Of a stretch of DNA of 64,000 nt, positions 9,370-10,104 are shown in pieces (position 1 is the stretch's first letter; each line of letters starts with the position of its first letter). The stretch comes from Caulobacter sp. (GTDB taxonomy: Bacteria > Pseudomonadota > Alphaproteobacteria > Caulobacterales > Caulobacteraceae): NCBI GenBank assembly GCA_029866155.1, contig JARWZW010000013.1:62001-126000 (forward strand), read 5' to 3'. A model generated the notes under the pieces. It searched no databases. It saw only the letters and a program-made list of their open reading frames with translations, and was not told the origin of the DNA. The translations under genes and the position numbers were made by a program.

Positions 9370-9386
9370 GGAGAGGGGCTTGCAGA

Positions 9387-9549
9387 ATCCTTCTCCCCTC
9401 GAGGGAGAAGGTGGGAGCCGAAGGTTGACGGTTGAGGGGGTCTTTCCGCGCGGCCGGCGCCCGAAAGTCATTCAAGATCAATCCCTACCGCCGGCGCAGC
9501 CCCTCATCCGTCGGCTTCGCCGACACCTTCTCCCTCGAGGGGAGAAGGG
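9387..9549. repeat. REP/BIME-like intergenic repeat, copy A
   Basis: starts with palindrome CCTTCTCCCCTCGAGGGAGAAGG and ends with its exact reverse complement CCTTCTCCCTCGAGGGGAGAAGG; highly similar copy at 9935-10096. Confidence 0.9.
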
Positions 9550-9585
9550 ATTGATATGTTTTCAGGGTTGTGATCTGTTCTTGAT

Positions 9586-9933
9586 ATGTCCCGCCCCGGC
9601 CAGCGCGAATTCGCACGCCACATGCGTCGTCAGCCGACCCATTGCGAAGCGCGGCTTTGGGAGCGGTTGCGGGGGAGGCAGTTCGAGGGGCTGAAGTTTC
9701 GGCGGCAGGCGCCGATCGGACGGTATATCGTGGACTTCTTTTGCGCCGAGCAGGGGTTGATCCTCGAAGCCGACGGGCCGACCCACGAGGACAGTGAGCG
9801 TGACCAGGTCCGCGACGCCTGGTTGGCCGAAAGGGGCTATCGCCTGCTGAGGTTTCGCAATGAGCAGATCGCCATGAACCTGGACCAGGTGCTAGACATC
9901 ATCCGAAGTCACATCGTCGGCCCTACAACCTGA
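9586..9933 (+). CDS. DUF559 domain-containing (Vsr-like) endonuclease
   Basis: MSRPGQREFARHMRRQPTHCEARLWERLRGRQFEGLKFRRQAPIGRYIVDFFCAEQGLILEADGPTHEDSERDQVRDAWLAERGYRLLRFRNEQI. Confidence 0.92.
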   Translation: MSRPGQREFARHMRRQPTHCEARLWERLRGRQFEGLKFRRQAPIGRYIVDFFCAEQGLILEADGPTHEDSERDQVRDAWLAERGYRLLRFRNEQIAMNLDQVLDIIRSHIVGPTT

Positions 9934-9934
9934 A

Positions 9935-10096
9935 ATCCTTCTCCCCTTGAGGGAGAAGGTGGCAGCCGAAGGCTGACGGTTGAGGGGGTCTGTCCGCGCG
10001 GCCGGTGTTGAGTGGTTTTCTCGATCAATTCTTACCGCCGGCGCGGCCCCTCATCCGTCGACTTCGCCGACACCTTCTCCCTCGAGGGGAGAAGGA
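9935..10096. repeat. REP/BIME-like intergenic repeat, copy B
   Basis: direct repeat of copy A (same edges, diverged centre); same terminal palindromes (one substitution in left). Confidence 0.9.
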
Positions 10097-10104
10097 ATCA
10101 GGTG

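Follow-up and report, generated by a model that had tools for sequence, protein, structure and literature searches.

REP-like repeats are common in bacterial genomes. In the 64,000-nucleotide stretch of Caulobacter sp. DNA analyzed here (the window), two copies of such a repeat enclose a small DUF559 gene. The question raised by this locus is whether the nuclease encoded there occupies the position of a RAYT transposase and disperses the repeats, as a sequence-only reading had proposed. The question also bears on the alphaproteobacterial CGTC repeats, which are reported to be without a dedicated transposase and for which no mobilizing enzyme was known (PMC3733652).

The direct repeats of about 162 bp that had been read at 9387-9549 and 9935-10096 are real, and their limits were refined to 9386-9550 and 9934-10098. 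The features of the locus are as follows.

Doublet A, 9386..9550, no strand assigned: inverted pair of two-hairpin modules, REPIN/MITE-like, lying upstream of the DUF559 gene.
Module A-left, 9389..9440, plus strand: hairpin 1 at 9389-9411; hairpin 2, GGAGCC-GAA-GGTTGA, at 9414-9428; tail CGGTTGAGGGGG at 9429-9440.
Module A-right, 9500..9548, minus strand: reverse-oriented module with hairpin 1 at 9526-9548 and tail CCCCTCATCC at 9500.
DUF559 gene, 9586..9933, plus strand: 115 amino acids, Vsr/EDxHD-fold nuclease (predicted).
Doublet B, 9934..10098, no strand assigned: the other direct copy of the doublet, lying downstream of the DUF559 gene.
Module B-left, 9937..9988, plus strand: hairpin 1 at 9937-9959; hairpin 2, GCAGCC-GAA-GGCTGA; tail TTGAGGGGG.
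Module B-right, 10047..10095, minus strand: reverse-oriented module with hairpin 1 at 10073-10095.

Doublets A and B are 88% identical over 163 nt, and the arms of doublet A (9389-9413 and 9524-9548; 25 nt) are 100% complementary. As described, each repeat is an inverted module pair that is conserved at its edges and diverged at its center. The gene starts about 36 nt past doublet A, and its stop codon adjoins doublet B. From outside to inside, each module consists of hairpin 1 (CCTTCTCCC-N5-GGGAGAAGG), TG, hairpin 2, and a tail of the CGG(A/T)TGAGGGG type. The 23-bp palindrome noted earlier is present as a hairpin, but its actual structure is a 9-bp stem closed by a 5-nt loop. The second hairpin and the GATGAGGGG-type tail are further parts of each module. 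The 23-mer of hairpin 1 occurs 4 times in the window at ≤3 mismatches, whereas dinucleotide shuffles predict 0 occurrences. The window locus, doublet-gene-doublet in layout, is among 11 loci with at least two hairpins per side (loose pattern). With hairpin 1 adjoining the gene, it does not have the commonest arrangement; the module tail points inward at 57 loci, outward at 4, and is unclear at 37. At the site orthologous to the window locus, related species carry single doublets of other types. Both doublet centers (9480-9500 and 10030-10046) hold CGCCGGCG, which fits the Caulobacter ScmA methylation motif YGCCGGCR, possibly by chance.

The genome that contains the window (3.5 Mb, 73 contigs) was searched for further copies, with repeat copies being located by pattern only. 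A 25-nt hairpin pattern gave 50 matches at ≤3 mismatches, whereas its reversed control gave 0. Each hairpin is matched on both strands, and the 50 matches thus correspond to about a dozen doublets, several of which are cut by contig ends. Control open reading frames (ORFs), random intervals, reversed patterns, and shuffles ruled out chance or GC-rich background. The DUF559 family (PF04480) was found at three places in this genome: the window gene, C12, and C8. The C12 gene (L002, G000:C12:61521-61829) has an in-frame TGA at a conserved tryptophan and is bracketed by a different family of inverted hairpins; this locus is a decayed unit. At C8, a DUF559 fragment lies near yet another inverted pair. 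Therefore, the window gene is the only intact DUF559 gene of its genome. At a separate locus of the same genome (L013, G000:C31:36642-37204), an outward-facing inverted pair of a different family (CCTCACCCTCCC...GGGAGGGTGAGGGGTTAC) lies between two doublets of the window type that are about 400 bp apart, and the sequence adjoining each doublet is duplicated too.

The window protein matched PF04480 with an E value of 6.6e-37 (126.2 bits, with a gathering cutoff of 20.6). Residues D50, E61, D63, H67, and D73, which are invariant in an alignment of 17 diverse sequences (A1), are all present in it, and no defense-system match of note was found for this protein. An AlphaFold2 model (mean pLDDT, 87) was matched by Foldseek to NGO0050 (3hrl; E = 1.8e-8), to the homing endonuclease I-Bth0305I (3r3p; E = 1.5e-4), and more weakly to Vsr (1vsr), and the sequence profile agreed with the fold match (3r3p; E = 0.004). 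The window protein is thus predicted to fold like I-Bth0305I and Vsr, in an EDxHD/Vsr-type nuclease fold. Weak Foldseek matches to several Toxoplasma and Tetrahymena mitoribosomal proteins suggest that this fold has also been adopted in organelle ribosomes. The median dN/dS of the DUF559 frame was 0.15 over 120 pairs, indicating purifying selection in dispersed copies, and so the enzyme has been kept. In Caulobacter crescentus cells without the methyltransferase ScmA, the DUF559 protein VsrA (CCNA_02930) triggers an SOS response (PMC12907096), which makes it likely that DUF559-type proteins are active nucleases in cells.

Within the family, 92 of 119 genomes encode DUF559; across the phylum, 167 of the 398 genomes sampled do. 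Bracketing was scored from the best inverted repeat whose two arms lay on opposite sides of the gene (score of at least 16) in 60 stretches, mostly of 16 kb. By this measure, 48 of 63 DUF559 places in the family (76%) were bracketed, compared to 1 of 260 other ORFs shorter than 1 kb in the same stretches (0.4%) and 0 of 405 random intervals. Fisher's test gave a P value of about 1e-42 for loci that are not all independent, since the 98 bracketed loci fall into 67 flank-homology groups. Bracketing was also found at 14 of 29 places in other families of the class and at 10 of 19 in other classes of the phylum. The repeats have widely different sequences (CCTTCTCCC, CCCTCTCTC, CCCTTCCCC, and CCCTCCCC types) and share one plan. 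The expectation that DUF559 genes would be consistently flanked by repeats was borne out for most such genes of the family; the remaining 24% had no detectable bracketing repeats at a score of at least 16. Among the 10 loci nearest the window protein, mostly of another DUF559 clade, 1 of 8 testable loci was clearly bracketed. The window repeat type (at least 4 hits) was found in 50 of 92 DUF559-positive genomes and in 5 of 27 DUF559-negative genomes (odds ratio, 5.2; P = 0.001, not corrected for phylogeny). The repeats are therefore not equally common where DUF559 is lacking, and yet 5 of those 27 genomes still hold the repeat family. These data establish the association of DUF559 with hairpin repeats as general, reaching other classes of the phylum, although not every DUF559 gene has it. 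One locus, L231 (G537:C31), carries an unusually long and nearly perfect inverted repeat around its DUF559 gene (score, 98; about 100 nt).

We compared DUF559 similarity with module similarity after removing pairs with homologous flanks and permuting within genera. For same-genus pairs at non-homologous sites, the two were correlated with a rho of 0.70, a value reached by 0 of 500 permutations (maximum, 0.47). The co-variation is thus not merely due to shared descent of sites. Within one genome, similar DUF559 proteins had similar modules (median, 43 of 60), whereas the modules of dissimilar ones were unrelated (16.5, against a background of 14). Between genera, the correlation was weak and not significant (rho, 0.06; reached by 43 of 300 permutations). 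The bracketed DUF559 nearest the window protein belongs to another genus (L080) and carries the window repeat type, the window gene itself lying between two complete doublets of that family; likewise, the bracketed DUF559 nearest the C12 gene carries the C12 repeat type. The repeat family tracks the DUF559 lineage, within genera and at non-homologous sites.

A complete unit is composed of a hairpin module, DUF559, and an inverted hairpin module and usually spans 430 to 630 bp (about 510 bp). The outer hairpins are the ends of the unit: alignments of units at unrelated sites run from one to the other and stop there or shortly beyond (L043/L073, L069/L070, and L050/L077), and two units of one genome, L044 and L081, lie at unrelated sites in opposite orientation with 86.5% identity. 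Relatives supplied empty sites, which the sequence-only reading had asked for, as well as sites with solo hairpins or DUF559-less doublets. Four species carry the full unit at the L069 site, whereas G071, with flanks 97% and 96% identical, has exactly one end hairpin. The L073 site holds the unit in G071, G134, and G122, one hairpin in G125, a window-type doublet in G046, and nothing in G052. The L070 site has a DUF559-less doublet of the same repeat family in one species. About twenty species match across the joined flanks of the L072 site; the closest have one hairpin, and several others have none. So one site can be empty or hold a solo hairpin, a doublet, or a full unit. Flanks at the empty and solo-hairpin sites are 95 to 97% identical, and gain and loss are not always separable there. 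Loci L072, L079, and L076 represent one orthologous intergenic site, with flanks 93% identical in two of the species, that holds DUF559 units differing in lineage and orientation; this site is a re-occupied hot spot. At one empty site, the DUF559 unit is replaced in two species (L306 and L319) by another palindromic repeat, which is of the CCTTCGAGGCTC...GAGCCTCGAAGGACG type.

DUF559-less doublets are far more numerous than doublets that hold the gene. The distance between hairpin starts is 117 to 149 bp for 43 of the 45 inverted pairs in the closed genome G105; one pair of 407 bp holds a DUF559 gene, and one of 1,232 bp is probably a chance pairing of neighbors. No DUF559 remnants were found in the DUF559-less doublets of five genomes (G003, G024, G045, G061, and G075). 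In G045, where DUF559 was not detected, some doublets of about 300 bp (L330-L333) hold a second, nested inverted repeat (CCACGGACCTCACAGACC) of another MITE-like family. No consistent target duplication was found at 29 doublets of one genome or at 9 of the window's genome, and precise empty sites have a shared hairpin in its place. An insertion sequence of the DDE type, or a MITE derived from a DDE transposon, was rejected because no consistent target-site duplication was found at these doublets. Judged from these sequence comparisons, DUF559 and its cognate hairpins form a real mobile unit with a REP-RAYT-like layout and an unrelated enzyme chemistry.

In hairpin 2, stem pairing has been kept by many compensatory changes (pairing of 1.00 at variable inner pairs, compared to shuffled means of 0.40 to 0.59). 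Its triloop is GNA in 54 of 65 cases, versus 6.7% of background hairpins, and TNC, the form expected from the other strand, in only 2 of 65; the GNA loop is therefore strand specific. C-GNA-G loops form extraordinarily stable DNA minihairpins (PMC4686876). Such a strand-specific, ultrastable loop suggests that what is recognized is single-stranded DNA, folded and of defined polarity, although RNA roles are possible. The flanks are pyrimidine rich before the hairpins and purine rich after them; no T-run was found following the hairpins, and a function as terminators was rejected on that ground.

A RAYT gene elsewhere could have explained the repeats. No matches to or candidates for the Y1/RAYT family (PF01797) were found in the genome of the window. 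In the family, PF01797 is present in 19 of 119 genomes, versus 92 of 119 for DUF559, and 13 of 23 tested Y1 genes (L127-L156) are bracketed by inverted repeats of a different kind, with terminal inverted repeats (TIRs) of the GGGGACAG/CGGTGACA type. The sequence-only reading was thus supported in part: DUF559 does hold the RAYT position, since in one genome after another it lies between repeats of its own family and co-varies and moves with them.

We consider it probable that DUF559 and its flanking two-hairpin modules constitute one mobile genetic unit, that the DUF559-less doublets are its non-autonomous (MITE/REPIN-like) relatives, and that the nuclease would drive their dispersal, this last step being our best inference. 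In the proposed mechanism, the Vsr-fold nuclease would recognize the hairpin modules, probably as single-stranded DNA folded with the GNA minihairpin loop, and would cut at or near hairpin 1. Host replication or repair would then copy the unit or doublet to a new site without target duplication, and recombination between the two end hairpins could delete a unit, leaving one solo hairpin. The main weakness of this mechanism is the joining step: the Vsr-type nuclease fold cuts DNA, but we know of no strand-joining activity for it.

A scheme in which another enzyme moves the doublets in trans, with DUF559 a passenger repeatedly carried inside them, does not share that weakness. The 5 of 27 DUF559-negative genomes that keep the repeats and the large excess of DUF559-less doublets also fit a passenger. 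Yet among ORFs of <1 kb, essentially only DUF559 is bracketed (1 of 260 controls), each of the unrelated repeat families has a DUF559 lineage of its own, dispersed copies show purifying selection on the frame, and the window's genome has no Y1 candidate. We therefore regard a passenger role as unlikely. If that other enzyme were an HUH Y1 transposase encoded elsewhere in the genome, with DUF559 incidental, the system would be a classical REP-RAYT one. The doublet layout does resemble that of REPINs (PMC3116915), but PF01797 was not found in the 73 contigs of the window's genome and is far rarer than DUF559 in the family, and the Y1 genes of relatives have GGGGACAG/CGGTGACA-type TIRs rather than CCTTCTCCC modules, leaving this explanation with hardly any probability.

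Two further explanations start from the nuclease itself. DUF559 could act in a homing-like manner, cutting hairpin-bearing or empty alleles so that the unit is copied by flank-homologous repair and spreads mainly between alleles rather than by transposition. The fold shared with I-Bth0305I is consistent with homing, as is the site at which relatives with 93% identical flanks hold different, oppositely oriented units. However, units that closely resemble one another lie at many non-homologous sites, even within one genome, a spread that allelic homing does not produce, and we consider homing improbable. Alternatively, DUF559 could be a resident repair or defense nuclease that serves the host, in very short patch (VSP) repair or linked to methylation as proposed for Caulobacter VsrA, in which case the hairpins would terminate or insulate a gene that moves horizontally. 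The SOS response provoked by C. crescentus VsrA without ScmA (PMC12907096) and the unbracketed DUF559 genes would suit such a role. It leaves unaccounted for the many DUF559-less doublets, the co-variation of repeat and DUF559, the solo hairpins, and the strand-specific GNA loop, and neither the flank composition nor the missing T-run matches terminators; we consider a resident role quite improbable.

Under the preferred reading, in which the nuclease disperses the hairpins, linking a class of hairpin repeats to DUF559 supplies a candidate function both for the repeats and for this protein of unknown function. If this is true, a simple nuclease can take the place of a transposase in serving dispersed palindromes, and there is a second, unrelated route to REPIN-like populations. 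On balance, we lean slightly toward a broader proposal, namely, that Pseudomonadota harbor a class of very small mobile elements whose sole protein is a nuclease of the Vsr/homing-endonuclease fold, which would move by the nuclease acting on folded DNA hairpins together with host repair, maintain large families of nuclease-less doublets, and represent an independently arisen, transposase-free counterpart of REP-RAYT. We group the DUF559 units with REP/REPIN-type elements; the mechanism that would make them a separate class is one that we infer. No description of a link between DUF559 and hairpin repeats was found in the full text of open-license papers, and a prior description elsewhere is possible.

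Several known systems share parts of this arrangement. The likeness of the window protein to the very short patch repair enzyme Vsr, which nicks specifically at T:G mismatches, is a predicted similarity of fold to 1vsr. VsrA also has a DUF559 domain and causes a DNA damage response in vivo; unlike the window protein, it has been studied as a repair nuclease linked to the methyltransferase ScmA (PMC12907096). I-Bth0305I and other homing endonucleases of the EDxHD/Vsr fold are, by the model, of the same fold, and they too are nucleases encoded by mobile elements. In contrast to homing endonuclease genes, DUF559 units lie outside introns and inteins, have hairpin ends, and are accompanied by dispersed, non-autonomous doublets. 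Homing endonuclease genes insert at one conserved recognition site and are copied through homology of the flanks; the DUF559 units occupy many non-homologous sites, and some sites have been re-occupied.

Among repeats, the Caulobacter CIR elements (Chen and Shapiro 2003, as described in PMC10969869) are, like the doublets, intergenic alphaproteobacterial repeats and are listed as MITEs, defined in that description by CcrM (GANTC) sites. GANTC was present in 1 of 29 doublets of one genome and was not enriched in the doublets tested, which may set them apart from CIRs as described in the citing paper (PMC10969869). The CGTC-tagged REPs are likewise abundant palindromic dimers of alphaproteobacteria, but by their published description (PMC3733652), the DUF559 modules differ from them in sequence and are without a CGTC (or TGTC/CCTC) tag and CCA tail. 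TIRYT repeats (PMC3733652) resemble the GGGGACAG/CGGTGACA repeats around the Y1 genes of the family. The closest parallel in organization is provided by REPtrons (REP-RAYT, TnpAREP) and REPINs (PMC3116915, PMC3733652, and PMC8266576): as in the DUF559 units, short intergenic hairpin repeats occur as inverted doublets in many copies, one or a few enzyme genes are bracketed by cognate repeats, and there is no clear target duplication. Unlike REPtrons, the DUF559 units bracket a PF04480 gene for a predicted Vsr/EDxHD-fold nuclease rather than an HUH Y1 transposase, their modules have two hairpins with a GNA loop and no terminal GTAG tag, and their repeat families vary with the DUF559 lineage.
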